Below are positions 38,277-55,894 of a stretch of 64,000 nt of DNA, one piece after another; position 1 is the stretch's first letter, and each line of letters begins with the position of its first letter. This DNA comes from Petrimonas sulfuriphila. Lineage in GTDB: Bacteria > Bacteroidota > Bacteroidia > Bacteroidales > Dysgonomonadaceae. The translations under genes and the position numbers were made by a program. Below the pieces are notes generated by a model. It was not told the DNA's origin, ran no database searches, and worked only from the letters and a program-made list of their open reading frames with translations. The stretch covers positions 2,480,001 through 2,544,000 of the forward strand of contig CP073276.1 of NCBI GenBank assembly GCA_038561985.1. The letters are read 5' to 3'.

Positions 38277-39536
38277 TTATCTTTTAGAGGTTACTTCCGA
38301 TTCGTAACTTTCAATTTCTTTAATGTATTCGTTTCCAACGGGAACACCTTGTTGCAGGCAATAATAGTTGTAAACGGCATTCCAAGGCATGGCCTTCAGC
38401 TCTTCCAGATAAGCCAGACGCTGAAAATTATTGTCTTGATTCTCGTACTCACGCAGTTTTTCAGTCGGCTCTAAAAGCGCTTGTAATAAAGCTTTTTGGG
38501 TAGACCGGATTCCAACAACATATGCGCCAATACGATTGATGGATGCATCGAAATAATCCAACCCGATATGTATTTTTTCCATCTGTCCGGAACGTACTAT
38601 TTCTTGTGTTAACTCCAGCAATGCGTCGTTCAGGATTACTACATGGTCGCTGTCCCAACGTTCTGGGCGGCTCACGTGCAGGGTAATTTCAGGAACAAAA
38701 AGCAACACGGAAGAAATTTTATCTGCAATTCCTTCGGTCGGATGGAAATGTCCTGCATCTAGCGTTAACAACATGTTGTTTTTAACGGCATATCCCATGT
38801 AAAACTCATGAGAACCTACCACATAGCTTTCGCTGCCAATACCAAAAAGTTTGCACTCAACACTATCTTTCAGGTATTCAGTGCTGATTTTTTCTGCCAA
38901 TACCTCGTCCAGAGATTCTTTCAGCAGTTGCCTGTGTTGTATGCGGGATACGCTCTTGTCTTTTTCCCCATCGTGGATCCAGATATTGTGAACACATGCA
39001 TCCCCTTGTTGACGGCCCATTTCTTCTCCAATACGGCGGCAACGGCGTAAGTGTTCTTTCCAGAAGTTGCGAATTTCCGGGTCGAAACTTGAAAGTGAAT
39101 AATTGCCGCTTTTTGAATGAGAGAAAAAGGTAGAATTAAAATCCAGTTTAGCACCAGTTTCCTTTGCCCAATTCATCCATGTTTGAAAATGTTTGGGCTC
39201 AATCTGGTCCCTATCTACCAATTTACCTCCGAAATCACCGTAGATCGCATGTAAACTTAAGCGATGTTTTCCAGGAATCAGATTCAACACTTTCCCGATG
39301 TCTTTTTTTAATTCATCAATCGTTCTGGCTTTGCCCGGATAGTTCCCTGTTGTTTGGATTCCTCCGGTCAGTTCTCCGTCGGGATTTTCAAAGCCCAACA
39401 CGTCGTCGGCTTGCCAGCAGTGAATGGAAATAGATACACTGTTTAGCTTCTCAATGGCTTTTTCCACATCAACTCCAAGTGCAGCGTATTGTTCTTTTGC
39501 AGCGGCAAACTCTTTTTTAATTTGTTCTTCTTTCAT
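38277..39536 (-). CDS. rhaA: L-rhamnose isomerase
   Basis: 419 residues, the family length. It converts L-rhamnose to L-rhamnulose with a divalent metal in a TIM barrel. Seen: ISIHCWQADDVLGFENPDGELTGGIQTTGNYPGKA, LHAIYGDFGGKLVDRD, LDFNSTFFSHSKS, IWIHDGEKD, LTLDAGHFHPTE, HVSRPERWDSDHVV and LDYFDASINRIGAYVVG, which carry the metal-binding Glu, Asp and His residues. It stands between rhaB (36 bp) and rhaT (5 bp). Confidence 0.97.
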   Translation of the reverse strand: MKEEQIKKEFAAAKEQYAALGVDVEKAIEKLNSVSISIHCWQADDVLGFENPDGELTGGIQTTGNYPGKARTIDELKKDIGKVLNLIPGKHRLSLHAIYGDFGGKLVDRDQIEPKHFQTWMNWAKETGAKLDFNSTFFSHSKSGNYSLSSFDPEIRNFWKEHLRRCRRIGEEMGRQQGDACVHNIWIHDGEKDKSVSRIQHRQLLKESLDEVLAEKISTEYLKDSVECKLFGIGSESYVVGSHEFYMGYAVKNNMLLTLDAGHFHPTEGIADKISSVLLFVPEITLHVSRPERWDSDHVVILNDALLELTQEIVRSGQMEKIHIGLDYFDASINRIGAYVVGIRSTQKALLQALLEPTEKLREYENQDNNFQRLAYLEELKAMPWNAVYNYYCLQQGVPVGNEYIKEIESYESEVTSKR

Positions 39537-39572: not shown

Positions 39573-41060
39573 TTATATCTCTTTGAAAAAATTTAAATAT
39601 TCGGTATAATGTTTGTCCCACAGGCTGGTGTCCTGAGGCTCGAATCTCGTAAGGTCAACGGAGTTTCTAACCATTTTTCGCATATCGTTTTTGTCCGCCA
39701 CTAGTCCGACAGCTTTTGCCTGAAGCAATATGTTCCCAATGGCCGTAGCTTCCGACGGTCCGGCAACCACAGCTATTCCGATAGCGTTTGCAGTGAATCT
39801 GTTCAGCATATTGTTTTGTGACCCTCCTCCGATAATATGTAAGGTGTCAATGGGAAAATCGGCCAGGCTTTTCAGGTTCCCGAGTACCTGTTTATACCGG
39901 AAAGCCAGGCTTTCGTAAATACACCGGGCAATTTCTCCTATGCTCTGTGGAACAAACTGTTGGGTTTTTTTGCAATAGTTTTGTATTTCATCAATCATTG
40001 ATTCAGGGCTCGCAAAACAGGATGCGTCAGGATTAATGAAGCATTTAAAAGGGTCAGCCTGAGTAGCCTCAAGCACTATTTCGTCGTAAGAGACATCTTT
40101 TTCTTTTGTCCATTCTTTTCTGCATTGTTCAATAAGCCACATGCCGCAGATGTTTTTCAATAAACGGATAGAGCCGTCAGCTCCACCTTCGTTGGTGAAA
40201 TTCAGTGAAAAAGTTTCCTCACTCACAACAGGTTCTTTCGATTCGATTCCCATCAGCGACCAGGTGCCCGAGCTCAAATAGGCGAAGTTTTCATTTTCAG
40301 CCGGAGTAGCCATGACTGCCGACGCCGTATCGTGTCCTGCTACGGCAATAACCGGAACAGCTCCCAGGTGGGTTTGTTTTTGCGCGGATTCTGACAATGT
40401 GCCGATTAGTGTTCCCGGAAAGACAATCGGCGCAAAATTATCTTTAGATAGATTTAACGCCTGTAACAGCTCTTCGTCAAAAGAACGTGTGAAAGGATTC
40501 AACAGTTGAGATGTAGACGCTATCGTATATTCCGTAACCATCTTGTTTGTCAATAGGTAAGACAAAGCATCGGGCATAAACAAAAACTTGTCCGTTACGG
40601 GATAGATGGGGTTGTTATCTTCGTGTTGAGTAAATAGCTGAAAAAGTGAATTGAAATTCATGATCTGAATTCCGGTTTTCAGGTAGGTATCCTTTTTCGA
40701 TAAAACCTTATTGAAAAAATTTTCTGGAGCAGTGAATGTGCGTGAATCGCGATAGCTGTAGGGCATACGAAGGGGTTCCCCGTCTTTGCCGAAAGACACG
40801 AAATCCACGCCCCAGGTGTCAATTCCAACAGATGCTATTTCAATACCTTGGTGTTGAATGTCTTTTAAAGATTTCACTATCTCACCATACAGATGAAATA
40901 AGTCCCAGTATAATCTGCCGTTGATGTCGATAATCGGATTTGCAAAACGATTGACTTCTTTCAACTCTAACCGGTTGTTTTTGATTGTACCCAAAATGGC
41001 TCGTCCGCTTGTTGCACCTAGATCGATAGCTAAAAAAGAGGTTAGTTTGCTTTCATTCAT
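39573..41060 (-). CDS. rhaB: Rhamnulokinase
   Basis: 495 residues, FGGY kinase family. It phosphorylates L-rhamnulose to the 1-phosphate with ATP. N-terminal FLAIDLGATSGRAILG binds nucleotide, VGIDTWGVDFVSFGKDGEPL and PYSYRDSRTF belong to the sugar site, AGHDTASAVMATPA and YLSSGTWSLMGIE to the FGGY core, and LHIIGGGSQNNMLNRFTANAIG to the ADP site. It is the first gene of the rhamnose operon. No rhamnulose-1-phosphate aldolase follows in the operon; the divergent operon at 41386 supplies an aldolase. Confidence 0.96.
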   Translation of the reverse strand: MNESKLTSFLAIDLGATSGRAILGTIKNNRLELKEVNRFANPIIDINGRLYWDLFHLYGEIVKSLKDIQHQGIEIASVGIDTWGVDFVSFGKDGEPLRMPYSYRDSRTFTAPENFFNKVLSKKDTYLKTGIQIMNFNSLFQLFTQHEDNNPIYPVTDKFLFMPDALSYLLTNKMVTEYTIASTSQLLNPFTRSFDEELLQALNLSKDNFAPIVFPGTLIGTLSESAQKQTHLGAVPVIAVAGHDTASAVMATPAENENFAYLSSGTWSLMGIESKEPVVSEETFSLNFTNEGGADGSIRLLKNICGMWLIEQCRKEWTKEKDVSYDEIVLEATQADPFKCFINPDASCFASPESMIDEIQNYCKKTQQFVPQSIGEIARCIYESLAFRYKQVLGNLKSLADFPIDTLHIIGGGSQNNMLNRFTANAIGIAVVAGPSEATAIGNILLQAKAVGLVADKNDMRKMVRNSVDLTRFEPQDTSLWDKHYTEYLNFFKEI

Positions 41061-41094: not shown

Positions 41095-41102
41095 CAAAAA
41101 TA
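41095..41102 (-). promoter_or_regulatory. -7 box of the rhamnose operon
   Basis: TATTTTTG on the minus strand, 34 bp before the rhaB ATG. No good -33 box; a large inverted repeat lies 33 bp further upstream. Confidence 0.55.
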
Positions 41103-41134
41103 AGAATAAGAACGGTAAGTAAAAATAATAAAAA

Positions 41135-41191
41135 TGATTTTGTTGCTGTATTATTTGATATTTTATGACAAAAAATACAGTACAAAAATCA
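41135..41191. promoter_or_regulatory. Large imperfect inverted repeat in the rhaB/E2 divergent promoter region
   Basis: Arms 41135-41159 and 41167-41191 pair at 19 of 25 positions (shared cores TGATTTT, CTGTATT and TTTG) around a 7-bp centre. It lies between the two divergent -7 boxes (41095-41102 and 41223-41230), where an AraC-family dimer would be expected to bind two half-sites. Binding by the regulator at 36227 is inferred. Confidence 0.5.
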
Positions 41192-41199
41192 ATAATTAC

Positions 41200-41230
41200 A
41201 TTGATTAAGAAAGAAAACCCTCTATTTTTG
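41200..41230 (+). promoter_or_regulatory. Promoter of the E2-E3-E1 operon
   Basis: ATTG (41200-41203), a 19-bp spacer and TATTTTTG (41223-41230). The predicted leader to the ATG at 41386 is about 150 nt. Confidence 0.55.
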
Positions 41231-41385
41231 CAACATCAAAAGTTGACCATTATTAGCATTATTTTATTTAATTTTTTTTTTGGATACTTTAGTTAATATG
41301 GGTAACTTTGTGTCAGCATAGTGTGGGATACTTAATACTGTGTTATAAATCAATTATTGAAGAGCTTTCTAAAATCAAAAAAAAT

Positions 41386-42732
41386 ATGGCAATAGTGGTT
41401 ATTATGCCCAAGCAGGGGCAGTCGGTCGAGAGTTGTATTATCGGCTCAATAAACAAGAAAAAAGGGGATAATGTAAAGAAAGGCGAAGTCCTTTTTTCCT
41501 ATGAAACGGATAAAGCCTCCTTCGAGGAGGAATCCCCTTCGGACGGAGTGGTTCTCGAGTGTTTTTACCGGGAGGGTGATGAGGTGCCTGTCCTGGGAAA
41601 CATGATGATTATCGGTGAGCCCGGCGAGGATTATTCCGCTTTGCTGCAAGGCAGTCCGGAGCCCGGGTCCGATAGCGGTAGCGAGGAGTCGATAACTGCA
41701 AGACAGGAAACCGTAAGCGCCGGGCCTGAAAATAACGCCCCGCAGAAGCTCGAATCCCGGAACGCAGGACCCGGAACCCGTTTCATTTCTCCCCGGGCCA
41801 AAAACCTCGCCTCAAAGGAAGCGGTCGATACCGCAGCGATAAGCGGGTCAGGGCCCCAGGGACGCATCCTGGAAAAAGACGTCCTGTCAACCCTGGAAAA
41901 TCGTCCGAAAATGACTCCCCTGGCAAAAAAGATTGCCTCGCAGGAAAACCTGCAGCCACAATCGGGCACCGGCTTGGCGGGGACAGCCCGGTCCGCCGAT
42001 TTGATTCCCTCGCTGAATACTGTCTACGCCAACGACTTTGAGGACAGGAAGCTCTCCAACATGCGCAAGCTCATTGCAAGAGCCATGCACGCTTCACTGC
42101 AAAACTCGGCGCAGCTTACCCACCACCTGGGTGCCGACGCGCGCCGGATCCTTGAGCTCCGGAAACAGGTCAAAGCGGATGTGGAAGCCCGGAAGCTATC
42201 GGCAAACATCACGCTGAACGACATGGTTTGCCATGCCGTGATCAAGGCCCTGAAGAAGTTCCCCAACGTCAATTCGCAATTTCTGGGCGACAGCATGCGC
42301 CTTTTCAACAAGGTGCATCTCGGGCTGGCGGTGGACACTGAACGTGGCCTGATGGTGCCGGTGGTGAAGAATGCCGATGACCTGTCGATCGTGGGGCTCT
42401 CAAACCAGCTGAAAGAGGTGGCGAACGCCTGCAAGGCGGGCAGCGTGAATCCGGATATCCTTTCCGCCGAGGCCGGTTCGTTCACCGTGTCCAACCTGGG
42501 GAATTACGGAGTGGAGATCTTCACTCCCGTTATTAACCTGCCGCAATCCGCCATATTGGGGGTAAACACGATAGTTCCGCGTCCGAAAGACCTGGGTGAC
42601 GGGGTTTATGCCTTTGTTCCCTACATCGGCCTGAGCCTCACGTACGACCACCGGGCGCTTGACGGCGGGGAAGCCACACGCTTCCTGAAGCAGATTGCCC
42701 TGGAAATAGAAAATCTTGAAATCGATTATTAA
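41386..42732 (+). CDS. Lipoyl-dependent acyltransferase E2 of a 2-oxoacid dehydrogenase complex
   Basis: 448 residues from the ATG at 41386 (MAIVVIMPKQGQSVESC); the longer frame starts in the leader. Order: lipoyl domain (1-80; YETDKASFEEES with the lipoylated lysine near 44), Ser/Gly/Glu-rich linker, peripheral-subunit-binding domain (FISPRAKNLASKEA...GSGPQGRILEKDVL, about 125-165), second linker, and the catalytic domain with LSLTYDHRALDGGEATRFL (His and Asp of the active site). It transfers the acyl group from lipoamide to CoA in the cytoplasm. Which 2-oxoacid is used is not visible. It opens an operon that also encodes E3, E1 and a lipoate ligase. GC is much higher than in flanking genes. 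Confidence 0.9.
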   Translation: MAIVVIMPKQGQSVESCIIGSINKKKGDNVKKGEVLFSYETDKASFEEESPSDGVVLECFYREGDEVPVLGNMMIIGEPGEDYSALLQGSPEPGSDSGSEESITARQETVSAGPENNAPQKLESRNAGPGTRFISPRAKNLASKEAVDTAAISGSGPQGRILEKDVLSTLENRPKMTPLAKKIASQENLQPQSGTGLAGTARSADLIPSLNTVYANDFEDRKLSNMRKLIARAMHASLQNSAQLTHHLGADARRILELRKQVKADVEARKLSANITLNDMVCHAVIKALKKFPNVNSQFLGDSMRLFNKVHLGLAVDTERGLMVPVVKNADDLSIVGLSNQLKEVANACKAGSVNPDILSAEAGSFTVSNLGNYGVEIFTPVINLPQSAILGVNTIVPRPKDLGDGVYAFVPYIGLSLTYDHRALDGGEATRFLKQIALEIENLEIDY

Positions 42733-42749
42733 TCTAAAAAAACAAAATA

Positions 42750-44105
42750 ATGTACGACTTACTGATCATCGGCGGTGGACCGGCCGGTTATGTGGCCGCG
42801 GAACGCGCAGGGCACAAGGGGCTGAAGGTGGTGCTGTTCGAGAAGAAAAGCCTGGGAGGCGTTTGCCTTAACGAAGGCTGTATTCCCACCAAGACCATGC
42901 TTTACAGTGCGAAGACCTATGAGAATGCCCTTCACGGGGACAAATACGGTGTTTTTGCGGAGAATGTCCGTTTTGAATACGACAAGATTGTATCCCGCAA
43001 AAATAAAGTGGTGCGCAAATTGGTCGCCGGCGTGAAAACCAAGATGAAGGCCAGCGATGTTGCGGTTGTTGAAGGCGAAGCCTGGATCTCGGGCAGAAGC
43101 GCCAAGGGAATCGAGGTGGTTTGCAACGGAGAGCATTACCTGGGAAACAACCTGTTGATATGTACCGGGTCCGAAGCGTCGGTTCCGCCCATTCCCGGAT
43201 TAGGGGAAGCCGGCGATGTTGTCCTGACCAACCGTGAGGTTCTTGAACTCAAGGAGCAACCCAAAAGTCTAGTCGTCATCGGGGGAGGAGTTATCGGGAT
43301 GGAGTTCGCCAGTTTTTACAACAGTTTAGGGTCCAGGGTGACCGTGATCGAGATGCTTCCCGAGATTCTGGGAAACAACGATTACGAGATATCAGCCCTT
43401 TCGCGCGATATTTTCACCAGGAAAGGCATCGAATTTCACCTTAACGCCAAGGTGGTCCGGGTGGACGGAAATAAAGTGGTTTTTGAGAAGGCGGGAGAAA
43501 CACGCACCGTCGAAGGCGATAAAATCCTGTTGAGCGTCGGGCGCCGCGCGGTGACCAGGGGTTTTGGACTCGAAAATCTGAATGTGGAACTGGACAGGGG
43601 AGGCATCAAGGTCGATGAAAAGATGCGTACCAATGTGCCCAACGTCTTTGCCGCCGGCGACGTGACCGGTTTTTCGCTTTTGGCGCATACCGCCAGCCGT
43701 GAAGGCGAAGTGGTGGTTAACAACCTTACGGGAAAAGACGACATTATGCGTTATAATGCCATTCCGGGAGTCGTGTACATCAACCCTGAAATTGCAGGTG
43801 TGGGTGAAACCGAAGAAAGTGCCAGGGCAAAAGGGATTGCCTACAAGGTAGCCAGACTCTCCATGGCCTATGCCGGGCGTTTTGTCGCAGAAAACGAGGG
43901 CGGTGTCGGATTATGCAAGGTGCTTGCAGGTGAAAAATACGGCGAAGTCATCGGTGTTCACATGCTGGGAAACCCGAGCAGTGAAATGATTTACGGCGCC
44001 TGTCTGGCAATAGAGCAGGAGATGACGCTCGAAGAAATGAAAGAGGTCGTTTTTCCGCATCCTACAGTAAGTGAAATATTCAAGGAAGTGATTTTTGAAT
44101 TTTGA
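42750..44105 (+). CDS. lpdA: Dihydrolipoamide dehydrogenase (E3)
   Basis: 451 residues. N-terminal FAD fold LLIIGGGPAGYVAAERAG, redox-active disulfide GGVCLNEGCIPTK (about 38-50), NAD fold VVIGGGVIGMEFASFYNSLG, second FAD contact VFAAGDVTG, and the C-terminal dimer interface with VFPHPTVSEIFKE carrying the active-site His-Glu pair. E3 reoxidises dihydrolipoamide of the E2 with NAD. It lies 17 bp after E2 and 84 bp before E1, and shares their high GC. Confidence 0.95.
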   Translation: MYDLLIIGGGPAGYVAAERAGHKGLKVVLFEKKSLGGVCLNEGCIPTKTMLYSAKTYENALHGDKYGVFAENVRFEYDKIVSRKNKVVRKLVAGVKTKMKASDVAVVEGEAWISGRSAKGIEVVCNGEHYLGNNLLICTGSEASVPPIPGLGEAGDVVLTNREVLELKEQPKSLVVIGGGVIGMEFASFYNSLGSRVTVIEMLPEILGNNDYEISALSRDIFTRKGIEFHLNAKVVRVDGNKVVFEKAGETRTVEGDKILLSVGRRAVTRGFGLENLNVELDRGGIKVDEKMRTNVPNVFAAGDVTGFSLLAHTASREGEVVVNNLTGKDDIMRYNAIPGVVYINPEIAGVGETEESARAKGIAYKVARLSMAYAGRFVAENEGGVGLCKVLAGEKYGEVIGVHMLGNPSSEMIYGACLAIEQEMTLEEMKEVVFPHPTVSEIFKEVIFEF

Positions 44106-44189
44106 TTGCCCGGACTTGCTTGCTCAAAACCCAATAACAATTTATAAGAAAAATGACGATTGTAAAATCGATCGAAAAAATAAAACAGT

Positions 44190-46649
44190 ATGCCAAAAAT
44201 TCAATTTATTGATCCGGCTGAAGCCCGGAAACCGGGCTTTGTGGAATTTCAGCCCATTCCTGTCAATCAGTATCAAAAAACGGTAAAAGAAGAACGCGAA
44301 AATTTTACCGACGAGGAACTAAAAGCCATTTATCACGACATGGCGCTCATCCGCGAGTTTGAAACCATGCTTAACCTTATCAAAACCAAAGGTGAATACA
44401 ACGGTGTGGCTTACAATCACCCCGGGCCGGCCCACTTGTCCATCGGACAGGAGTCGGCGGCCGTGGGGATGGCCTGGACGCTTACCGTGGATGACTTTAT
44501 TTTCGGGAGCCACCGTTCGCACGGTGAAATCCTGGCCAAGGGGATGTCTGCCATCCATAAGCTTGCCGATGAGGAACTGTTGAAGATAATGCAGGGATTC
44601 TTTGACGGTTCGGTACTGGAAATCGTTCAAAAGGATTTCAACGGAACAACCAGGGAGCTTGCCCGCCGTTTTCTGGTTTACGGAACATTGGCTGAAATCT
44701 TTGCCCGGGAAACCGGATTCAACAGAGGACTGGGCGGTTCCATGCACGCCTTCTTCACGCCTTTCGGCGTGTATCCCAACAATGCCATCGTGGGTGGATC
44801 GGGAGACATAGCCGTTGGTGCCGCGTTATACAAAAAAGTCAACCGCAAACCCGGCATGGTGGTTGCCAACATAGGTGACGCATCGATGGCTTGCGGACCT
44901 GTTTGGGAAGGGATCACTTTTGCCGCCATGGACCAGTTCAAGGAGCTTTGGGACGGAGATATGAAGGGCGGGCTTCCGGTGATCATCAACATCATGAACA
45001 ACCAGTACGGGATGGGCGGCCAGACCTGTGGCGAAACCATGGGTTACGGCATCGCAGCCCGTATCGGTGCAGGTGTGAACGAGGAACAGATGCACGCCGA
45101 ACGCGTGGACGGTTACAATCCGCTGGCGGTAATTGACGCTTACAAACGCAAGCGAAAAATAATTGATGAGAAAAACGGGCCGGTCTTGCTGGATGTCCTG
45201 ACCTACAGATACAGCGGGCACTCTCCCTCCGACGCGTCTTCCTACCGCACGAAGGAGGAAGTGGAAGCCTGGGAAAGACAGGACTGTATTGCGTCGTTCG
45301 GCAAACAGTTGCTGGAGGCGGGCGTGGCCGTCCAGGACGAGCTTGACGCCATCTGGAATGACATAAGGACGCTCATCCACGAGATGTTCCTCAAATCGAT
45401 CAACGATGAGATCTCGCCCCGCATGAAAAATCCCGACGCGATCGGGGATATGATGTTCTCGAACGGTTCCGTGGACAGTTTCTCCGATGCAAGGCCCGAC
45501 GTGCTGATGCCGATGGAGGAGAACTCCCGCGTAAAGAAGATAGCCGGCAAGGAACGTTTTGCGTTCGATGCCGAAGGCAAGCCGTTCAGCAAGATGAAGC
45601 AGTTCCAGTTGCGCGACGCCATTTTCGAAGCCATCATGGACAGGTTTTACAAGGATGCCTCGCTCGTTGCCTACGGAGAGGAGAACCGCGACTGGGGAGG
45701 CGCCTTTGCCGTTTACGGAGGGATGACGGAAGCCTTGCCATATCACCGCCTGTTCAACTCACCCATATCGGAAGCCTCTATCGTAGGTACGGCCATCGGT
45801 TACGCCATGTGCGGAGGAAGGGTTGTCCCCGAAATCATGTACTGCGATTTTCTGGGACGTTGTGGCGATGAAGTGTTCAACCAGCTTCCCAAATGGCAGG
45901 CAATGAGCGGCAACGTGCTGAAGATGCCGGTCGTGCTTCGTGTTTCGGTGGGCTCCAAATACGGCGCGCAGCACTCGCAGGACTGGACATCGCTTGTGGC
46001 ACATATCCCGGGCATCAAGGTTTGTTTCCCGGTGACGCCTTACGATGCCAAGGGGCTGATGAACGCGGCGCTTCAGGGAACCGATCCGGTGATCTTCTTT
46101 GAAAGCCAGCGCATCTACGATATCGGCGAGCAATTCCATGAAGGAGGCGTTCCTGCCGGATATTACGAAATACCCATCGGTGAACCCGACGTGAAGAAAG
46201 AGGGAAAGGACATCACCTTCCTGACCATCGGACACACGCTTTATCCCGCGCTCCAGGCGGCAAAAGAATTGGAGTCGGTCCATGGGATGAGCGCCGAAGT
46301 GATCGATGCCCGTTCACTGGTGCCGTTCAATTACGAAAAAGTGGTCGCCTCGGTGAAGAAAACCGGCAAGATCATTGTTGCCGGCGATGCGACTGCCCGC
46401 GGCTCGTTCCTGAACGACCTGGCGGCAACCATCGGTTCGCTCTGCTTCGATTACCTGGACGCGCCCGTTGCGGTGCTTGGGTCACGCAACTGGATCACGC
46501 CGGCTCACGAACTTGAAGGCGCGTTCTTCCCGCAGCCAGGCTGGTTCATCGATATGATCCACGAACGCATACAGCCCCTCAAAGGGTATATGCCCGGTGA
46601 GAATTTCACCGATGCCGAAATGATCAGGAGAGCAAAAAAAGGAATTTGA
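44190..46649 (+). CDS. Fused E1 alpha/beta 2-oxoacid dehydrogenase (thiamine diphosphate)
   Basis: 819 residues combining both E1 subunits. The alpha half (about 40-440) shows HPGPAHLSIGQESAAVG, FGSHRSHGEILAKG, GLGGSMHAFF, the ThDP motif GDASMACGPVWEGI...NIMNNQYG and RYSGHSPSDASSYR. The beta half (about 480-810) shows AIFEAIMDRFYKDASLVAYGEE, FNSPISEASIVGTAIGYAMCGGRVVPEIMYCDF, SVGSKYGAQHSQDW and EVIDARSLVPFNYE. The enzyme decarboxylates a 2-oxoacid and passes the acyl group to E2. The fold order resembles acetoin, branched-chain and pyruvate types; substrate not determined. Its stop is just ahead of the PHP-gene ATG, so they are coupled. Confidence 0.88.
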   Translation: MPKIQFIDPAEARKPGFVEFQPIPVNQYQKTVKEERENFTDEELKAIYHDMALIREFETMLNLIKTKGEYNGVAYNHPGPAHLSIGQESAAVGMAWTLTVDDFIFGSHRSHGEILAKGMSAIHKLADEELLKIMQGFFDGSVLEIVQKDFNGTTRELARRFLVYGTLAEIFARETGFNRGLGGSMHAFFTPFGVYPNNAIVGGSGDIAVGAALYKKVNRKPGMVVANIGDASMACGPVWEGITFAAMDQFKELWDGDMKGGLPVIINIMNNQYGMGGQTCGETMGYGIAARIGAGVNEEQMHAERVDGYNPLAVIDAYKRKRKIIDEKNGPVLLDVLTYRYSGHSPSDASSYRTKEEVEAWERQDCIASFGKQLLEAGVAVQDELDAIWNDIRTLIHEMFLKSINDEISPRMKNPDAIGDMMFSNGSVDSFSDARPDVLMPMEENSRVKKIAGKERFAFDAEGKPFSKMKQFQLRDAIFEAIMDRFYKDASLVAYGEENRDWGGAFAVYGGMTEALPYHRLFNSPISEASIVGTAIGYAMCGGRVVPEIMYCDFLGRCGDEVFNQLPKWQAMSGNVLKMPVVLRVSVGSKYGAQHSQDWTSLVAHIPGIKVCFPVTPYDAKGLMNAALQGTDPVIFFESQRIYDIGEQFHEGGVPAGYYEIPIGEPDVKKEGKDITFLTIGHTLYPALQAAKELESVHGMSAEVIDARSLVPFNYEKVVASVKKTGKIIVAGDATARGSFLNDLAATIGSLCFDYLDAPVAVLGSRNWITPAHELEGAFFPQPGWFIDMIHERIQPLKGYMPGENFTDAEMIRRAKKGI

Positions 46650-46651
46650 TC

Positions 46652-47821
46652 ATGAATTTACCAAAAGTAAATGCCCACCTGCATACCCCGTTCTCTTTCA
46701 GTGCTTTCCGCGATATTGACGATGCGCTGGACAGGGCCGTTGCTGAAAAGGTTAAAGTGGTTGGTATCAACGATTTTTATACTGCCGAAGGTTACGAAGA
46801 GTGGATGGAAGGTTGTTCCAAACGTGGACTTTATCCGCTTTTCGGCATCGAGTTTATCAGCCTGAACGAAGAGGATCAAAAAGCAGGTTTGCGGGTGAAC
46901 GATCCCGGAAATCCAGGACGGACTTACATCAGCGGGAAAGGATTGTTACAGCCCTTTAAGCTGAGTGAGCCTTATGCTTCGCAATTGACGAATGTACGTA
47001 CAGAGGCTAATAAGCAGGTGGAAGCCATGTGTGAAAAACTGAACGGAATCCTTACTGCTAAAAATGTCGGATTTGTACTCGATATGGATTGGATTAAGGA
47101 TAATCTGACTAAGGGTTCTGTTAGGGAACGTCATTTGGCGAAGGCTTTACGCTTGAAAGTTTATGAAAATTCAGGCGATAACCCAACAAGCATAAAGAAC
47201 CTGCTAGAAGAAATTTTCGATGGAAAAGAACTGAAGTCGGATACTGAAAATCTTGCAGGTGTAGAGAACGAGATCCGTGCTAACCTGTTGAAAGCAGGTG
47301 GTTCGGCTTTTGTTCCCGAGACTGTCGAGGCGTTTCTTCCGATGCAGACGGTATGCAAAATCATTCTGGCAGCCGGAGGAATACCTACTTATCCCTTTTT
47401 AGCGGATGATGCCCAGGGAAATTATACCGATTTTGAACGTGACCTGGAACACGTGGCAAAACAACTGACCGAGCGTGGGTTTCATTCCGTGGAATTTATT
47501 ACCACCCGAAACGATATGAACCTGTTGGAGAAATATGCAACATATCTTCACAACCAGGGTTTTATCGTAACCCTGGGCAGTGAACACAACTCTCCGTCAA
47601 TGGAACCTATTGAACTTTTTGCCCGCAACCAGACCCCGTTATCGGAAAAATTACTGCGGGTCAACTATGAGGGTGCGTGTATTATTGCAGCTCATCAACA
47701 TTTGGTTGCCCAGGGACTGAGCGGTTATTTGGATGAACAGGGGAACGCCGACCGCTCAAAAAGAGGTGAGTTTGTGAAATGGGGAGATGAGTTAATCAGA
47801 AACACAGTCGGAAAACAATAA
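46652..47821 (+). CDS. PHP-domain metal-dependent protein
   Basis: 389 residues from the ATG at 46652, two bases after the E1 stop; an in-frame TTG at 46646 is less likely. VNAHLHTPFSFSAF is the first PHP metal motif (HxH), VVGINDFYTAEGYEEW and LFGIEF supply the next acidic and histidine-type ligands, and FIVTLGSEHNSPSMEPI gives the late His. The PHP fold serves phosphoesterases such as histidinol phosphatase. In this operon a sugar-phosphate phosphatase would fit, but this is inference. From this gene on the operon's GC falls back to the level of the rest of the window. Confidence 0.75.
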   Translation: MNLPKVNAHLHTPFSFSAFRDIDDALDRAVAEKVKVVGINDFYTAEGYEEWMEGCSKRGLYPLFGIEFISLNEEDQKAGLRVNDPGNPGRTYISGKGLLQPFKLSEPYASQLTNVRTEANKQVEAMCEKLNGILTAKNVGFVLDMDWIKDNLTKGSVRERHLAKALRLKVYENSGDNPTSIKNLLEEIFDGKELKSDTENLAGVENEIRANLLKAGGSAFVPETVEAFLPMQTVCKIILAAGGIPTYPFLADDAQGNYTDFERDLEHVAKQLTERGFHSVEFITTRNDMNLLEKYATYLHNQGFIVTLGSEHNSPSMEPIELFARNQTPLSEKLLRVNYEGACIIAAHQHLVAQGLSGYLDEQGNADRSKRGEFVKWGDELIRNTVGKQ

Positions 47822-47823
47822 AG

Positions 47824-49785
47824 ATGAAAGAAATTCAGGATTTAATATCCATTTCGCGATTCTACGGCAAAGACAGCCGTTTTGTGATCGCCGGAGGGGG
47901 AAATACATCGTACAAGAACGAAGAGAAGATCTGGGTGAAAGCCAGTGGTTCATCACTCGAAACCATTACTGAAGATGGCTTTGCCATACTGGATCGCTCG
48001 CTACTTAATCCCATGTCTGGAAAGCAATACAGCGAAAATGCTGCCGAACGCGAAGAGCAAGTCAAAAATGATCTTGCTGCGGCTACTGTCACAAAAGGTA
48101 AACGCCCGTCGGTAGAAACCTCCATGCACAACGTGATCAACTATGCATTTGTGGTTCACTTACATCCAACGATCGTAAATGGATTAATGTGCGCAGTAAA
48201 TGTCACCACAGTGTTGGAAAATCTTTTCGGTGAAAAAGTGTTGTACGTGGAATATACCGATCCGGGCTATGTTCTGTTTAAAAAAGTAGACGAGAAAATA
48301 AAGGAATATCGCCAGAAATTCAGCGAAGAACCACAGGTAATCTGGTTGCAGAACCACGGGATTTTTGTGGCTGCGGATAGTATTGAAGAGATAAAATCTA
48401 TATATGGTTCAATTTTTGCAACACTTGAAAAGGCCGTGAGCATTCCATTGCCGGAAGACGAGAGGAAGGTGTGCCGCTGCGTGAGTGAAGTGTTGCCTGC
48501 AATCCGGATGTTGGTTTCTAAGGATAACCTTAAAACCCTGAAAGTTCGCAGGAACGGATTGATAGAATACTTTTGCGAAAGTCCGAGAAACCAGGTAGCC
48601 ATTGCAAAACCTTTTACTCCCGATGCGATCGTTTACTGCAAGTCTAACTATTTGTTTTTGAACGATGAAACACCTGGACAAGTTCTCGAAAATGCTGAAG
48701 AATTGATTCCCGGCTTTGTAAATAAGTTTGGTTATCTGCCAAAAGTTTTGTTGATAAAAGGCATCGGGCTTGTATCCGTGGGAGATAATGCCAGACAATG
48801 CGATACCATTCTCGACGTATTTGAGGATGCTATGAAAGTTGCCTTTCTCTCTCAATCGTTTGGCGGTGCACACCCAATGACACAGGCTCAAATTGAATTT
48901 ATTGATAACTGGGAAGTGGAAAATTACCGCCGCAGTGTTGCTGCCGGAAATGCTTCGGGGCGGGTAGAAAATAAAACCATTGTTGTAACCGGTGCAGCAC
49001 AAGGTTTTGGCGAGGGAATTGCCGAATGTTTGCTGCGGGAAGGAGCCAATATTGTAGTGGCAGATTTGAACGAAGAGGCAGGACGGAATACGGTTGGGAA
49101 GTTTAATGGCCTGGCGAAAAGTAACCGGGCAATTTTTGTGAAAACAAATGTTTCCGAAATTTCAAGCCTCGACAACCTGGTGCAGGAGACTGTCTGTCAT
49201 TTTGGTGGAATTGACTGCTTTATTAGCAACGCCGGTGTGTTGAGAGCCGGTGGGCTAGAAGATATGACACCCGAAAACTTCGACTTTGTCACAAAGATCA
49301 ACTACAATGCCTATTTCTATTGTACAAAAGTAGTGAGCCAAGTAATGAAGCTGCAAACGAAATATGCATCAAGCGATTATTTTGCCGATATCATTCAAAT
49401 AAATTCGAAATCGGGACTTCGCGGAAGCAAGGCTAACTTTGCATATGCTGGTGGGAAGTTCGGAGGAGTTGGACTTACGCAGTCCTTTGCACTGGAACTG
49501 GCTCCCTTCAGGATAAAAGTCAATTCGGTCTGCCCTGGCAATTACTACGAAGGCCCGCTCTGGAGTGATCCCGAAAATGGGTTGTTTGTACAATACCTGA
49601 ATGCAGGAAAAGTACCCGGTGCCAAAACTATTGACGATGTGAAAGCGTTCTATCTGGCACAGGTGCCGATGCGAAAAGGTTGCACACCCGGGGATGTTAC
49701 CAAGGGGGTACTGTATCTGATGGAGCAATGCGGCGAAACTGGACAGGCATTGCCTGTTACCGGTGGACAAGTAATGTTGAATTAA
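47824..49785 (+). CDS. Bifunctional class II aldolase / short-chain dehydrogenase
   Basis: 653 residues. The N-terminal class II aldolase domain (about 1-400) has GGGNTSYK, KASGSSLETI, the acid residue in SVETSMHNVI, zinc ligands VVHLHP and QNHGIFVAA. The C-terminal SDR domain (about 385-653) has VTGAAQGFGEGIAECLL, SNAGVL, the serine in INSKSG and YAGGK. This is the layout of RhaEW, the rhamnulose-1-phosphate aldolase/lactaldehyde dehydrogenase, and of sorbitol-6-phosphate-dehydrogenase-like fusions. It would split a ketose 1-phosphate to DHAP and an aldehyde. Two bases after the PHP gene. Assignment to rhamnose relies on the divergent rhaBAT operon, which lacks an aldolase. Confidence 0.82.
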   Translation: MKEIQDLISISRFYGKDSRFVIAGGGNTSYKNEEKIWVKASGSSLETITEDGFAILDRSLLNPMSGKQYSENAAEREEQVKNDLAAATVTKGKRPSVETSMHNVINYAFVVHLHPTIVNGLMCAVNVTTVLENLFGEKVLYVEYTDPGYVLFKKVDEKIKEYRQKFSEEPQVIWLQNHGIFVAADSIEEIKSIYGSIFATLEKAVSIPLPEDERKVCRCVSEVLPAIRMLVSKDNLKTLKVRRNGLIEYFCESPRNQVAIAKPFTPDAIVYCKSNYLFLNDETPGQVLENAEELIPGFVNKFGYLPKVLLIKGIGLVSVGDNARQCDTILDVFEDAMKVAFLSQSFGGAHPMTQAQIEFIDNWEVENYRRSVAAGNASGRVENKTIVVTGAAQGFGEGIAECLLREGANIVVADLNEEAGRNTVGKFNGLAKSNRAIFVKTNVSEISSLDNLVQETVCHFGGIDCFISNAGVLRAGGLEDMTPENFDFVTKINYNAYFYCTKVVSQVMKLQTKYASSDYFADIIQINSKSGLRGSKANFAYAGGKFGGVGLTQSFALELAPFRIKVNSVCPGNYYEGPLWSDPENGLFVQYLNAGKVPGAKTIDDVKAFYLAQVPMRKGCTPGDVTKGVLYLMEQCGETGQALPVTGGQVMLN

Positions 49786-49802
49786 TAAAATCATAGCAAA
49801 AA

Positions 49803-51086
49803 ATGAAAACAAGAGCAGTCCGTTTGTACGGCAAAAAAGATCTCAGGCTGGAAGAGTTTGAATTGCCGGCCATTAAGGACGACGAGATACTTGCAAAAGT
49901 AGTTTCTGATTCATTGTGTATGTCGTCTTACAAGGCATCCTCGCAAGGCGCGGAACACAAACGGATCCCCGATAATGTAGCCGAAAACCCTATCATCATC
50001 GGTCATGAGTTTGCCGGAGAATTACTGGAAGTTGGCAGTAAGTGGGCGCATAAGTTCAAAGCAGGTGATAAATTCTCCATTCAGCCGGCCCTGTATTACG
50101 AAAACGGGCCTGTTGGTATTCTGAGCGCTCCTGGTTATAGTTACTCGTATATTGGAGGTGACGCAACCTATGTGGTGATTCCGAATGAAGTGATGGAGCG
50201 AGATTGCCTCCTGGCTTATCACGGTGAAGGGTATTATCCTGCTTCATTGGCCGAACCGCTTTCGTGTGTTATTGGAGCCATGCACGCCAATTATCATACC
50301 ACTCCGGGCAGTTACCGGCATAATATGGAAATAATTGACGGCGGAAAGATGGCTATTCTTGCCGGAGTAGGTCCAATGGGGCTGGCCGCGATCAATTTCG
50401 TGCTCCGTCGCGAAGAAGTAAAGCCATCCTTACTGGTGGTTACCGATATCGACCAGACACGGCTCGACCGTGCAGCATCCATCTATACCGTTGAGTTCGC
50501 TGCTTCACGCGGAATCGATCTGAAGTACATCAATACAGGAAAGATGGAGAATCCCGTGGAAGAGCTGAAAGCAATCAGTGGCGGAGCAGGTTTCGATGAT
50601 GTCTTTGTGTTTGCTCCCGTAAAGCCTGTTGTAGAACAAGGGGATGCTATTCTTGGATTTGACGGATGCCTGAACTTTTTTGCCGGCCCTGACAACCCGA
50701 ACTTCAGTGCCATGTTGAATTTCTATAATGTTCATTACGCCTATACGCATATTGTCGGCACCAGCGGTGGAAATAACGACGATATGGTAGAAGCATTGGA
50801 CATCATGAGCAAAGGGTTGGATCCTGCCGGATTGGTTACTCATATCGGAGGCTTGAATGCTGTTGCTGAAGCGACTAACAACCTGCCCCATATTCCTGGA
50901 GGTAAAAAATTGATTTATACACATATAGAAATGCCGCTTACCCCCATTTCCGATTTTGCAAGTTTGGGAGAAACCGACGGTCTCTTTAAGAAATTAGCTG
51001 AAATCTGTGACCGGCATAACGGTTTGTGGAGCGTAGAAGCAGAAGCATACCTCTTGTCTAACCATCCCTCAATCCGTACCCCATAA
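49803..51086 (+). CDS. SorE-like zinc-type alcohol dehydrogenase
   Basis: 427 residues, medium-chain dehydrogenase family. DSLCMSSYKASS (catalytic-site cysteine), IIGHEFAGELLEVG (His-Glu), LAEPLSCVIGAMHANYH and the Rossmann loop LAGVGPMGLAAINFVL are visible, as is a long insertion (QGAEHKRIPDNVAENP) seen in L-sorbose 1-phosphate reductase (SorE) relatives. The structural zinc cysteine cluster of classical members is not evident. It probably oxidises or reduces a sugar or polyol phosphate with NAD(P). It is 17 bp after the aldolase/SDR gene and 17 bp before the next aldolase. Confidence 0.82.
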   Translation: MKTRAVRLYGKKDLRLEEFELPAIKDDEILAKVVSDSLCMSSYKASSQGAEHKRIPDNVAENPIIIGHEFAGELLEVGSKWAHKFKAGDKFSIQPALYYENGPVGILSAPGYSYSYIGGDATYVVIPNEVMERDCLLAYHGEGYYPASLAEPLSCVIGAMHANYHTTPGSYRHNMEIIDGGKMAILAGVGPMGLAAINFVLRREEVKPSLLVVTDIDQTRLDRAASIYTVEFAASRGIDLKYINTGKMENPVEELKAISGGAGFDDVFVFAPVKPVVEQGDAILGFDGCLNFFAGPDNPNFSAMLNFYNVHYAYTHIVGTSGGNNDDMVEALDIMSKGLDPAGLVTHIGGLNAVAEATNNLPHIPGGKKLIYTHIEMPLTPISDFASLGETDGLFKKLAEICDRHNGLWSVEAEAYLLSNHPSIRTP

Positions 51087-51103
51087 CCCGAAACTGGCAT
51101 CAT

Positions 51104-52402
51104 ATGAAACAACTAGACATTCATTTAATGCATCCGGTAGAGCAGATCAACATAATTATCGGACGAATTTACCGAAGCGGAATGACCACCACTTCCGGTG
51201 GAAATATTTCCATCCGGGATGATAACGGAGATATCTGGATCACACCGTCGGGCGTGGATAAAGGAAATCTGACCACCAAGGACATTATGTGTGTAAAAAA
51301 AGATGGATCCGTCGTAGGCCTTCACAAACCATCTTCAGAATATCCTTTCCACAGGGCGATTTACGAATCTCGTCCGGATATAACGGCAATCATTCATGCT
51401 CATCCACCGGCGCTGGTCGCTTTCAGCATCGCCGGCACTGTCCCCGATACCAAGATTGTTCCGCAGGCGCATAATGTCTGTGGCGATATCGGTTTTGCGC
51501 CTTATGGCACACCTGGGAGTGAAGACCTTGGAAAAAAAATTGCCGGTGTGTTTCAAGACAAACGTTTCCGGGCCGTAATTATGGAAAATCACGGTGTTGT
51601 GCTGGGCGGGACCGATATGATGGACGCTTATCAGCGGTTTGAAACCTTGGAGTTTTGCTGCCGTACCATCGTGAATGCAGGTAAACTCGGAAAAGTAAAA
51701 TATCTTTCTGACGAACAGGTGGCAAGCTATGTGAACCATATCCCGAGGAATATTTCACATTTTATGGATGTAGAATATCCGTCTGATGAACGTGCTTTAC
51801 GTACCGAAATGGTTAATATCATTCGCCGGTCATGCGATCAGGGCTTGATGATTTCTACGTATGGAACGGTGAGTGTACGGTGGCGTAACGATGACTTTTT
51901 AATAACGCCCCGTGATGTTGCCCGTTGGGATATTTTGCCGAGCGATATTGTACAAATCAAAAACGGAATGGCAGAAGCAGGAAAAATACCCAGCCGTTCG
52001 GTAGCGCTTCACCAACGGATTTATCAGCTTAATCCGCACATCAATTCCATTATCTGCACTCAACCCATCAACCTGATGGCACACGCTGTGAGCGGAAGCA
52101 AGTTTGATGTACGTACGATTCCCGAAAGTTGGATCTTCCTGCAGGACGTGCCTTCGATTCCGTTCGGACTGATTTATAACGAGATTGACGGTGTAGCAAA
52201 AATGTTTCGTGAAAACCGGGTGATTTTGGTGGAGAACGACAGTGTCTTTGTTACAGGAGATAAATTGCTCAACACTTTCGATTACCTGGAAGTTGCCGAA
52301 TTTTCGGCCAATTCTCTCGTGATGGCTTCTGCTATCGGACCGTTGAAACCTATCGGGGACAAGGAGATAGATGACCTTCGTATCGCCTTTAATGTTGGAT
52401 AA
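51104..52402 (+). CDS. Tandem class II aldolase/adducin protein with degenerate second domain
   Basis: 432 residues, two aldolase-fold halves. The first (about 1-210) is intact: TTSGGNISIRDDNGDIWITPSG, SSEYPFHRAI (catalytic Glu), IHAHPPALVAFSIAG (zinc HxH) and MENHGVVLGG (third His). The second (about 225-425) keeps the scaffold (STYGTVSVRWRNDDFLITPRD) but SVALHQRIY replaces the Glu motif, CTQP replaces HAHP and VENDSVFV replaces ENHG, so metal binding is lost. The active half probably cleaves or epimerises a phosphorylated sugar; the second may be structural. It overlaps the lipoate ligase start by 11 bp. Confidence 0.85.
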   Translation: MKQLDIHLMHPVEQINIIIGRIYRSGMTTTSGGNISIRDDNGDIWITPSGVDKGNLTTKDIMCVKKDGSVVGLHKPSSEYPFHRAIYESRPDITAIIHAHPPALVAFSIAGTVPDTKIVPQAHNVCGDIGFAPYGTPGSEDLGKKIAGVFQDKRFRAVIMENHGVVLGGTDMMDAYQRFETLEFCCRTIVNAGKLGKVKYLSDEQVASYVNHIPRNISHFMDVEYPSDERALRTEMVNIIRRSCDQGLMISTYGTVSVRWRNDDFLITPRDVARWDILPSDIVQIKNGMAEAGKIPSRSVALHQRIYQLNPHINSIICTQPINLMAHAVSGSKFDVRTIPESWIFLQDVPSIPFGLIYNEIDGVAKMFRENRVILVENDSVFVTGDKLLNTFDYLEVAEFSANSLVMASAIGPLKPIGDKEIDDLRIAFNVG

Positions 52403-53144
52403 GTTCAATTTGAATACGAAACTTATTTTTTCTCCCTCAACCGTACCGGCTTTTAACCTGGCTGCGGAGGAATACCTTTTTTCCGTCCGGGAAGATTATC
52501 TCTTCCTGTATGTAAATAATGCAAGTGTTATTGTTGGCTATAATCAGGCGGTGGTGAACGAAGTGGACATGGACTTTTGTATTGAGAAAGATATTCGCAT
52601 TATCCGGCGTTTATCGGGTGGAGGAGCTGTTTATCACGATTCAGGAAACCTGAACTACGCTTTTATATCCGATAAGAAAGAAATGCCGCTCAGCGCCGAT
52701 TTTCTTTTGCCCGTGATCCATGTGCTTCAGCAGCTGAATATTCCCGTTGAAACCGGAAAGAGAAAAGACTTATGGTTACCCGGTGGGTACAAGGTTTCGG
52801 GTACCGCGTCGCATGTGTCAAAAGGCCGTGAATTGCATCACGGGACATTGCTTTACGAAAGCAATCTAGAACATTTGAAACGTTCGTTAAGTCCGGAAAA
52901 AAGAAACCTTATAACCAAGGCAACGGCTTCCGTACCCAGTCCGGTGAAAAACATAAGTTCTTTTTTGAAAGAAGAAAAAAGGAACCCCTTTTCTTTCCGG
53001 GAATTTGTAAAGCGGTTTGTAGATGAATCGATGAAATATTTTAACATTGCCGGGCTAACCTCATTCTCTCCGGCTGAGGTGGAAGCTATAGAAACATTGC
53101 AACGTGAGAAATATTCGCAACGTACGTGGAATTATAAGATGTGA
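52392..53144 (+). CDS. lplA: Lipoate-protein ligase A
   Basis: 250 residues from the ATG at 52392. It activates free lipoate with ATP and attaches it to E2/GcvH lysines. Seen: FNLAAEEYLFS, the lipoate-site RRLSGGGAVYHDSGNLNYAF (about 72-91), VETGKRKDLWLPGGYKVSGTASHVSKGRELHHGTLLY with the catalytic Lys region, and the C-terminal accessory part. It is the last gene of the E2-E3-E1 operon, overlapping the previous gene, so its likely partner is the E2 made at the other end of the same operon. It meets hemG tail to tail with 13 bp of overlap. Confidence 0.92.
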   Translation: MLDKFNLNTKLIFSPSTVPAFNLAAEEYLFSVREDYLFLYVNNASVIVGYNQAVVNEVDMDFCIEKDIRIIRRLSGGGAVYHDSGNLNYAFISDKKEMPLSADFLLPVIHVLQQLNIPVETGKRKDLWLPGGYKVSGTASHVSKGRELHHGTLLYESNLEHLKRSLSPEKRNLITKATASVPSPVKNISSFLKEEKRNPFSFREFVKRFVDESMKYFNIAGLTSFSPAEVEAIETLQREKYSQRTWNYKM

Positions 53145-55893: not shown

Positions 55894-55894
55894 T

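Follow-up and report, generated by a model that had tools for sequence, protein, structure and literature searches.

What does a thiamine- and lipoyl-dependent dehydrogenase complex do in an operon that also encodes sugar-phosphate aldolases, two predicted polyol dehydrogenases and its own lipoate-protein ligase? In the window, i.e., the whole 64-kb stretch of DNA analyzed here, this operon looks like a replacement catabolic module of Bacteroidales for the 6-deoxyhexoses L-rhamnose and L-fucose, supported by gene neighborhood and phylogenetic profile, and like a way of breaking down these sugars that is undescribed so far. Plant, algal and host glycans commonly contain rhamnose and fucose, and the anaerobic breakdown of these two sugars through lactaldehyde is usually depicted with 1,2-propanediol as its end product. 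We recognized no description of the gene set in the open-licence PMC literature, where absence is weak evidence.

Gene arrangement

Eight collinear genes occupy positions 41386–53144 of the plus strand in the order E2, E3, fused E1, PHP, aldolase/SDR, SorE, tandem aldolase and LplA (Table 1), as the original prediction, made from the sequence alone, had listed them. Its description of gene starts that overlap or lie less than 20 bp apart after E1 agrees with gaps of −4 bp (E1–PHP), 2 bp (PHP–aldolase/SDR), 17 bp (aldolase/SDR–SorE), 17 bp (SorE–tandem aldolase) and −32 bp (tandem aldolase–LplA), the two upstream gaps being 17 bp (E2–E3) and 84 bp (E3–E1). The promoter-like site follows a pattern that we take to be the Bacteroidetes-type promoter consensus, and it is the sole strict plus-strand match within 36000–54000. 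Upstream of E2, and absent from that first description, a divergent rhaK-rhaI-rhaT cluster is accompanied by a putative regulator, which we read as AraC-type and which gave no NCBIfam match at 1e-20. The host is an anaerobic, digester-type bacterium.

Table 1. Features of the operon and the divergent rha cluster, in window coordinates.
Feature	Position	Strand	Basis or remark
Putative rha-gene regulator	36227..37126	-	homologues adjoin rha genes in relatives
L-rhamnose/proton symporter RhaT	37243..38271	-	NF010022 426 bits, cut-off 369
L-rhamnose isomerase	38277..39536	-	NF002203 656.6 bits, cut-off 572
Rhamnulokinase RhaK	39573..41060	-	TIGR02627 528.7 bits, cut-off 527.95
Promoter-like site TTTG-N20-TAACTTTG (pattern TTTG-N20-TAnnTTTG)	41279..41310	+	just before E2
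E2: lipoyl, E3-binding and 2-oxoacid_dh catalytic domains	41386..42732	+	Pfam PF00364, PF02817, PF00198
E3 dihydrolipoyl dehydrogenase	42750..44105	+	TIGR01350 484 bits, cut-off 409
E1, alpha and beta fused, 819 aa	44190..46649	+	Pfam PF00676, PF02779, PF02780
PHP-domain phosphoesterase-like protein	46646..47821	+	PF02811
Class II aldolase domain fused to sorbitol-6-phosphate-dehydrogenase-like SDR	47824..49785	+	PF00596 and PF00106
SorE, L-sorbose-1-phosphate reductase homologue (zinc MDR)	49803..51086	+	52.7% to Klebsiella SorE
Tandem class II aldolase	51104..52402	+	PF00596 in two stretches
LplA-type lipoate-protein ligase, 257 aa	52371..53144	+	PF21948

Conservation and phylogenetic profile

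Relatives of the operon were compared at the best 80 of 459 loci, which include near-duplicates and partly repeat others of the 459 (L073/L158, L074/L156). Among the 41 of these named loci spanning at least 20 kb, 36 hold all five of E2, E1, PHP, aldolase/SDR and SorE, on one strand in 36/36 and in that order in 35/36. Proteiniphilum acetatigenes DSM 18083 (L104) is one of the carriers. Co-occurrence of all eight genes, put forward as a check in the original prediction, extends to this five-gene set and, across genomes, to E1, PHP and SorE; the tandem aldolase (25/41 loci) and LplA (15/41) look accessory to the module.

E1 is present in 26 of 198 genomes of the order, distributed over 17 families; a route of this breadth that yields acyl-CoA in place of 1,2-propanediol would call for revised flux models of digesters and sediments. 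PHP and SorE were each counted in 25 of the 198, never without E1 and thus in 25 of the 26 E1 genomes (the SorE distribution was set against that of E1 by eye; for PHP, 28 genomes match at 1e-3, and G031, G032 and G076, with best E values of 1.7e-5 to 7e-4, were excluded). As the 198 genomes are mutually related, a Fisher test on co-occurrence overstates their independence.

L-rhamnose isomerase was found in 23 of the 26 E1 genomes (G118, G136 and G169 gave no match) versus 22 of the 172 others. Within these rhamnose genomes, a RhaD-type aldolase accompanies the isomerase in 2 of 23 with E1, compared to 19 of 22 without E1, at a threshold of E 1e-30 chosen because the curated cut-off would leave no genome of the order with a match. 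In G006, the matching frame has 217 aa and lies at a contig edge, and three of the 22 lack RhaD as well as E1 (G002, G029, G112). The canonical lactaldehyde reductase occurs in none of the 23 versus 11 of the 22, with weaker, sub-cut-off TIGR02638 matches in five E1 genomes (G006, G058, G064, G096, G164). The host shares RhaI, RhaK and RhaT with the classical Bacteroidales route (RhaI-RhaK-RhaD plus lactaldehyde reductase), but its genome gave no match to RhaD (TIGR02624) at 1e-30 or to lactaldehyde reductase (TIGR02638) at 1e-80, its one Fe-ADH not being of the TIGR02638 kind. The two sampled genomes of its own family (G019, G133) carry rhamnose isomerase and RhaD, and no E1.

Some other copies of the operon lie near fucI/fucP; in 15 of the 41 loci of at least 20 kb, no rha or fuc gene was found within the fetched flank. 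Together, the distribution of the three enzymes and the copies near fucI/fucP give the operon the look of a replacement L-rhamnose/L-fucose route, and two sugars named in the original prediction thereby gain support from the divergent rha genes, the neighborhoods in relatives and the genome profile. For sorbitol or sorbose, also named there, we saw nothing beyond the SorE homology; both were set aside as growth substrates, given that no PTS, kinase or transporter is found among the eight genes and that rha/fuc genes lie nearby.

The E1-E2-E3 complex

By adjacency, Pfam domains and motifs, the first three genes belong to the 2-oxoacid/acetoin dehydrogenase multienzyme complexes. E2 reads DKA in its lipoyl domain and DHRALDG, and E3 reads CLNEGC. 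E2 scores under the cut-off of every NCBIfam E2 model listed, and E1 under the curated PDH E1 cut-offs (NF006667, 223/321; NF008854, 213/454; TIGR03182, 191/394; TIGR03181, 130/411 bits).

We placed E1 in a tree that used 12 Bacteroidales rows of 97, with fused E1s cut at fixed positions; neither tree nor alignment includes L181, annotated with its E1 in two frames. The operon E1 and those of rhizobial sugar operons form a deep separate clade (support 100), outside the BCKDH clade, and the BCKDH row joins the cell's other E1 (support 100). Backbone supports for placement with acetoin or pyruvate enzymes are 12–42, and at these values the two acetoin-locus E1s do not cluster with the operon E1. 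The alignment shows insertions common to the operon and rhizobial E1s, R500 and N523 invariant in 101/101 aligned rows, and invariant E1 features that are absent from the PDH and BCKDH rows.

The closest E1s outside the order (52–54% identity) belong to rhizobial sugar operons that also encode kinases and a split, AcoC-like E2, the five relatives retrieved having a separate lipoyl protein and an alpha/beta-hydrolase; two of the operons include a mannitol-dehydrogenase-family gene. The acetoin dehydrogenase complex (AcoABCL) is alike in its TPP-dependent alpha/beta E1, lipoyl E2 and E3, whereas the operon is set among sugar rather than butanediol genes and its E1 shows additional insertions and residues specific to the family. 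The E1 structure model was poor (pLDDT 57), its active site unreadable.

LplA aligns to positions 2–241 of the 328 of TIGR00545 at 228.5 bits (cut-off 280), short of a full-length match; the catalytic domain PF21948 is present, and the C-terminal part of the model is missing. Two other genes of LplA/LipB type lie in the genome. The PHP protein scores 20.5 bits against NF041577, which calls for 400, and gave no usable solved relative by sequence search and no match among the plasmids searched. Its AlphaFold2 model (pLDDT 93) best matches 2yb1, 3e0f and 9etk in Foldseek (E 5e-12 to 1e-11), of the metal-dependent phosphoesterase/RNase AM type, and this fold, with the metal-site region of the RNase AM/nucleoside bisphosphate phosphatase type, is accompanied by invariant H9, H11, D41, E67, E311 and H312.

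SorE, SDR and aldolases

SorE is a close, full-length homologue of SorE of the Klebsiella sor operon (52.7% identity over a 419-column alignment), and annotated sorE genes of Klebsiella, Citrobacter and Serratia are among its best plasmid matches; from this homology to L-sorbose-1-phosphate reductase, we predict ketose-1-phosphate reductase activity. The best solved relative of the SDR domain is the sorbitol-6-phosphate dehydrogenase 5o3z (1.1e-36). The likeness to the Klebsiella sor operon, an L-sorbose system with SorE and an SDR, has its limits: the operon SDR is only 24% identical to the Klebsiella SDR, there is no PTS, the ketose-1-phosphate would be kinase-made, and the genes share their operon with aldolases and a dehydrogenase complex.

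Both the aldolase/SDR protein and the first domain of the tandem aldolase have the zinc-site residues of class II aldolases, which the second domain has lost; the tandem protein reaches 51.9 bits against the RhaD model TIGR02624 (cut-off 400.95). These are the only PF00596 aldolases of the host genome. Among 21 of the 26 E1-carrying genomes searched, 18 have a long PF00596 frame (fused in 13, separate in 5), G006 and G014 have partial frames only, and G118 (90% complete) alone has neither; seven have two-domain frames of 433–444 aa like the tandem aldolase. In some relatives, the SDR comes without an aldolase part. We rejected the idea that such loci dispense with the aldolase, as five genomes have the separate long frame and G006 and G014 partial ones.

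A candidate pathway and its alternatives

The best explanation overall, to which we assign a probability of roughly 0.4, is that L-rhamnulose-1-phosphate is reduced and then re-oxidized at the carbon adjoining the methyl group, after which E1-E2-E3 splits the product into acetyl-CoA and a tetrose phosphate; we infer every step after RhaK. RhaI and RhaK would supply L-rhamnulose-1-phosphate, and SorE would reduce its C2, yielding a 6-deoxyhexitol phosphate. Oxidation of the carbon beside the methyl group by the SDR domain (in some relatives perhaps by an MtlD-like enzyme) would then give a 1-deoxy-2-ketose-6-phosphate (CH3-CO-CHOH-R). The fused E1 with thiamine diphosphate would attack this methyl ketone as acetoin dehydrogenase does, freeing tetrose-4-phosphate, and the acetyl group would pass from E1 to E2, lipoylated by LplA, and on to CoA, with NADH formed at the E3 step. 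The tetrose phosphate might be salvaged by the operon aldolase domains and phosphatases, or by transaldolase-type neighbors elsewhere, and the net product would be acetyl-CoA in place of lactaldehyde and 1,2-propanediol. At the core of such a new 6-deoxyhexose pathway, the complex would tentatively be a thiamine- and lipoyl-dependent ketose-cleaving dehydrogenase, or 'oxidative transketolase' (1-deoxyketose phosphate + CoA + NAD+ -> acetyl-CoA + NADH + aldose phosphate), as would the related rhizobial sugar-operon E1s. Should ketoses indeed be the substrates of E1, the names 'pyruvate', 'acetoin' or 'alpha-ketoacid' dehydrogenase would be wrong for a branch of the genes that carry them. LsrF (AI-2 phosphate to acetyl-CoA and DHAP) and phosphoketolase similarly cut a sugar-derived phosphate to an activated acetyl group, with enzymes unrelated to those of the operon and no lipoyl chemistry.

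The sugar-operon setting and the polyol dehydrogenases point to acetoin-type ketose cleavage rather than to a 2-oxoacid as the E1 substrate. In its favor we count SorE, the SDR and the MtlD-like genes (found within the flanks at 5 loci, adjoining E1 or E2 in L086 and L094) as predicted enzymes of ketose-phosphate/hexitol-phosphate exchange; TalB lies in the flank of 4 E1 loci, and FSA-like genes (see below) in that of 5. Against it, the SDR domain is just 24–29% identical to two SDRs of sor-type operons, the loci of the next fused E1 relatives (Phaeobacter, Paenarthrobacter) are not sugar operons, the tetrose would by stereochemical reasoning be threo unless a center were epimerized, and no obvious task falls to the constant PHP protein.

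The aldolase frames in 18 of 21 carriers fit plain aldol cleavage at least as well as ketose cleavage, and the apparent replacement of RhaD is likewise expected if an aldolase splits rhamnulose-1-phosphate to DHAP and L-lactaldehyde, the SDR makes lactate as RhaW does, lactate is oxidized to pyruvate, and the complex, as a pyruvate dehydrogenase, turns this into acetyl-CoA. The pyruvate option of the original prediction corresponds to this route. The same domain layout is found in RhaEW of Chloroflexus and Bacillus, likewise an aldolase-SDR fusion of rhamnose loci, which acts as aldolase plus lactaldehyde dehydrogenase (PMC3870299). We nevertheless consider this route the less likely of the two: identity to the RhaEW-type proteins listed is just 24–27% and the TIGR02632 score is 224.7 bits (cut-off 567.75), on which grounds RhaEW orthology was set aside; SorE and PHP, nearly as constant as E1, would have no role; the operon lacks a lactate dehydrogenase; a different E1 of the cell groups with BCKDH; and no aldolase is annotated beside the rhizobial E1 relatives, in a gene table that is incomplete.

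It is unlikely that the complex takes another sugar-derived 2-oxoacid (e.g., C4) or is a generalist co-regulated with rhamnose genes. Its 2-oxoacid dehydrogenase domains and a near-identical E2-E3-E1 block at another locus of Petrimonas IBARAKI would suit such a role, but the co-occurrence of SorE and PHP with E1, and the invariant features missing from aligned PDH and BCKDH rows, argue against it.

The fusion of aldolase to SDR, and the FSA-like genes that immediately follow E1 in L093 and L101 (among 5 E1 loci with such a gene in the flank, two of them on the same contig), would be explained if SorE and the SDR made the 1-deoxyketose-6-phosphate, the fused aldolase or an FSA-like enzyme cleaved it to hydroxyacetone and glyceraldehyde-3-phosphate, and E1 took the three-carbon ketol. 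Every operon enzyme but PHP would then have a step; we find this sequence of reactions improbable, as it would require E1 to give off a one-carbon unit, formaldehyde or another, and none of the eight genes is one for handling it.

That the complex is the cell's ordinary pyruvate or branched-chain enzyme, placed in a sugar operon by chance, would fit its domain content alone and is hardly credible next to two other E1 systems in the same genome (near 3.06 and 3.49 Mb) and the separate E1 clade, which led us to set that identity aside and which uphold the originally predicted sugar route with a dedicated acyl-CoA-forming complex.

Gene content and conservation of the operon

The original prediction of an operon running from E2 to a lipoate ligase was borne out: E2, E3, an alpha/beta-fused E1 of 819 aa, a PHP-domain protein (PHP), a class II aldolase/SDR fusion (AldSDR), a SorE homologue of the zinc dehydrogenase type, a tandem class II aldolase and an LplA-type ligase are all encoded on one strand, with intergenic gaps, in that order, of 17, 84, -4, 2, 17, 17 and -32 bp. 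The window's genome (G000) is a single contig of 3.83 Mb.

Features of the operon, its surroundings and related loci
Feature	Sequence	Coordinates	Strand	Remark
Bacteroidetes-type promoter	window	41279-41310		one strict match, between operon and divergent rhaK, rhaI, rhaT
Operon	window	41386-53144		E2 to LplA
E2-E3-E1 block	window	41386-46647		E2 start to E1 end
Tandem aldolase	window	51104-52402		second domain degenerate but conserved
Downstream run	window	53132-60153	minus	convergent with operon; protoporphyrinogen oxidase, HemN, AmpG/RhtX-like permease, frame matching C-terminal part of TonB-siderophore receptors, MnmL/YtqA radical SAM gene
blastn piece 1	window	34450-39587		99.4% identical to Petrimonas sp. 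IBARAKI L096
blastn piece 2	window	39570-56646		99.6% identical to L096, which has ~240 bases more where the pieces join
Second E2-E3-E1 copy	IBARAKI L093	7197-12458		
Acetoin-dehydrogenase-like set	G000:C1 (L002)	near 3063000-3067000		E1alpha-E1beta-E2
Gene run	L101	3725-13146		FGGY kinase, SIS isomerase, TIM-like isomerase, YjbQ, E2, E3, E1, FSA-like aldolase

The co-occurrence check suggested for these genes was run with E1, which retrieved 459 relatives from the genome contigs; counts refer to the 41 loci of at least 20 kb among the best 80 of the 459. SorE was present in 39/41, PHP in 38/41, AldSDR (whole or SDR part only) in 38/41, the tandem aldolase in 25/41 and LplA in 15/41. E2, E1, PHP, AldSDR and SorE occurred together in 36 of the 41, on a single strand in every case and with their order unchanged in 35 (L124 being the exception), and the operon is thus a conserved unit. 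The fetched flanks of 26/41 loci held a rhamnose/fucose-type isomerase, kinase or permease gene, with rhaI or rhaT in 17, fucI or fucP in 8 and both kinds in 1; the one FucI and one FucP checked passed their curated models. A GntR-like regulator gene, so assigned by a profile scan of one member, recurred in 31 of 102 clustered loci and lay divergently, directly before E2, in the examples viewed.

Apparent replacement of the classical rhamnose route

Among 198 Bacteroidales genomes, E1 was found in 26, spanning 17 families; PHP and SorE were each present in 25 of these, and neither occurred without E1 in the 198 at the thresholds used. L-rhamnose isomerase was present in 23/26 E1 genomes versus 22/172 others. 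Within these rhamnose genomes, a RhaD-type aldolase (TIGR02624, E 1e-30) was called in 2/23 with E1 (G006 and G064) versus 19/22 without, and lactaldehyde reductase scored above cut-off in 0/23 versus 11/22. Both sampled members of the window's family, G019 and G133, carry rhamnose isomerase and RhaD and lack E1. In G000, PF00596 aldolases occur only in this operon, and its sole iron-type alcohol dehydrogenase, which we take to be YqhD-like, did not match the lactaldehyde reductase model TIGR02638 at 1e-80.

The operon is therefore strongly linked to rhamnose and fucose, by flanking genes as well as genome profile, and seems to stand in for the textbook rhamnose route of RhaD plus lactaldehyde reductase. 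The proposed self-contained path from a sugar phosphate to an acyl-CoA is partly supported, in its sugar association and its dedicated acyl-CoA-forming complex, the E1 reaction being a matter of hypothesis. RhaD is the form reported in Bacteroidales by a published survey (PMC3870299), the main text of which contains neither "pyruvate dehydrogenase" nor "acetyl-CoA".

Phylogeny of E1

That the complex might be the cell's ordinary pyruvate or branched-chain enzyme was examined by E1 phylogeny. G000 has two further E1 systems, at 3.49 Mb (clustering with BCKDH) and 3.06 Mb (clustering with an E1 from a sugar locus in C. difficile); the operon E1 falls in a separate clade and is distinct from the cell's ordinary complex. 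Its clade partners are the fused E1s of rhizobia (support 100), with which it shares insertions in both halves; next come fused E1s of Phaeobacter and Paenarthrobacter from non-sugar-operon loci (support 100) and then an Arthrobacter sugar-locus E1 (support 89). Deeper branching, towards the acetoin and pyruvate enzymes, has supports of just 12-42. Among the residues shared by the operon-rhizobial clade, R500 and N523 are each invariant in 101/101 rows, as are H108, R109, E497 and H595, which presumably have catalytic roles.

Among E1s outside the order, the nearest found in a plasmid collection belong to Rhizobium, Agrobacterium and Pleomorphomonas (52-54% identity over 96-97%). In all five loci of this type that were fetched, genes for a lipoyl-domain protein and an alpha/beta-hydrolase (acoC by annotation in one case) come after E1, and the surroundings include ABC transporters, a carbohydrate kinase and regulators of the sugar or DeoR type; 2/5 have a mannitol-dehydrogenase-family gene within 10 kb of E1. 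On rhizobial plasmids (L178, L179, L180, L187), the 52-54% fused E1, mostly annotated as alpha-ketoacid dehydrogenase, accompanies a stand-alone lipoyl protein and the alpha/beta-hydrolase in sugar operons. Among more distant E1s (31-34%), some come from sugar loci, in Arthrobacter, S. chiapasense and R. sophoriradicis together with a class II FBA and also in C. difficile, and others from acetoin or unrelated loci.

Individual enzymes and proposed mechanism

SorE shares 52.7% identity with SorE of a Klebsiella sor operon and 52% with E. coli YggP. The closest solved structure to the SDR domain is sorbitol-6-phosphate dehydrogenase 5o3z (130 bits; runner-up 105), and identity to two SDRs of sor-type operons is only 24 and 29%. 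The first half of the tandem aldolase is closest to fuculose-phosphate-type aldolase structures and retains the E, HxH and NHG residues; in the second half these positions are occupied by SRS, CTQP and END. Tandem aldolase copies (47-62% identity) are also found in a further three genomes from the same phylum (L067-L069), with E1 absent in the 20 kb fetched; that in L069 lies beside rhaK and rhaI homologues. The predicted PHP fold (pLDDT 93) resembles metal-dependent phosphoesterases.

In the sor pathway, SorE and sorbitol-6-phosphate dehydrogenase shift the ketone of a ketose phosphate from end to end via the hexitol phosphate. Acting likewise on rhamnulose-1-P or fuculose-1-P, SorE and the SDR would produce a methyl ketone adjacent to a hydroxyl, the motif cleaved by acetoin dehydrogenase, and the E1 complex would then cut C4-C5 to give acetyl-CoA and a tetrose phosphate. 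By our reasoning, this cut would also abolish the stereocentre in which the two sugars differ, so that one complex could serve both. Because of this, and of the shared motif, such acyloin cleavage is our preferred hypothesis for E1. Its weak point is the place of the aldolase domains and PHP, which might dispose of the tetrose phosphate by condensation with DHAP and dephosphorylation, or by epimerisation. Alternatively, these same proteins may point to plain aldol cleavage as the true first step. On either reading, the module takes the place of RhaD plus lactaldehyde reductase, and its end point is a dedicated complex forming acyl-CoA.

The E2-E3-E1 block in other contexts

The second copy in Petrimonas sp. 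IBARAKI (L093) is 99.5% identical in DNA to the window over 5262 bp, stopping at gene boundaries; it is followed by an FSA-like gene and a different SorE (83%), and PHP and AldSDR are both absent from the locus. Since this copy ends at gene boundaries and the GC content of E2-E3-E1 is 52-56% versus 42-47% in the other five operon genes, the block appears to travel, or to be converted, as one piece. E3-E1 of Petrimonas, 100% identical at the protein level, is also present on a probably misbinned contig (L092) from a MAG labelled Syntrophobacterales.

The L101 gene run is possibly another sugar route employing the same complex. Across the 105 loci searched, MtlD-like genes occurred in five, adjoining E1 in L086 and E2 in L094 and lying about 5-6 kb or more off in L093, L104 and L151. 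FSA-like genes were likewise found in 5/105 (L074 and L156 being one contig, judged by length), and TalB in 5/105, four of which contain E1.
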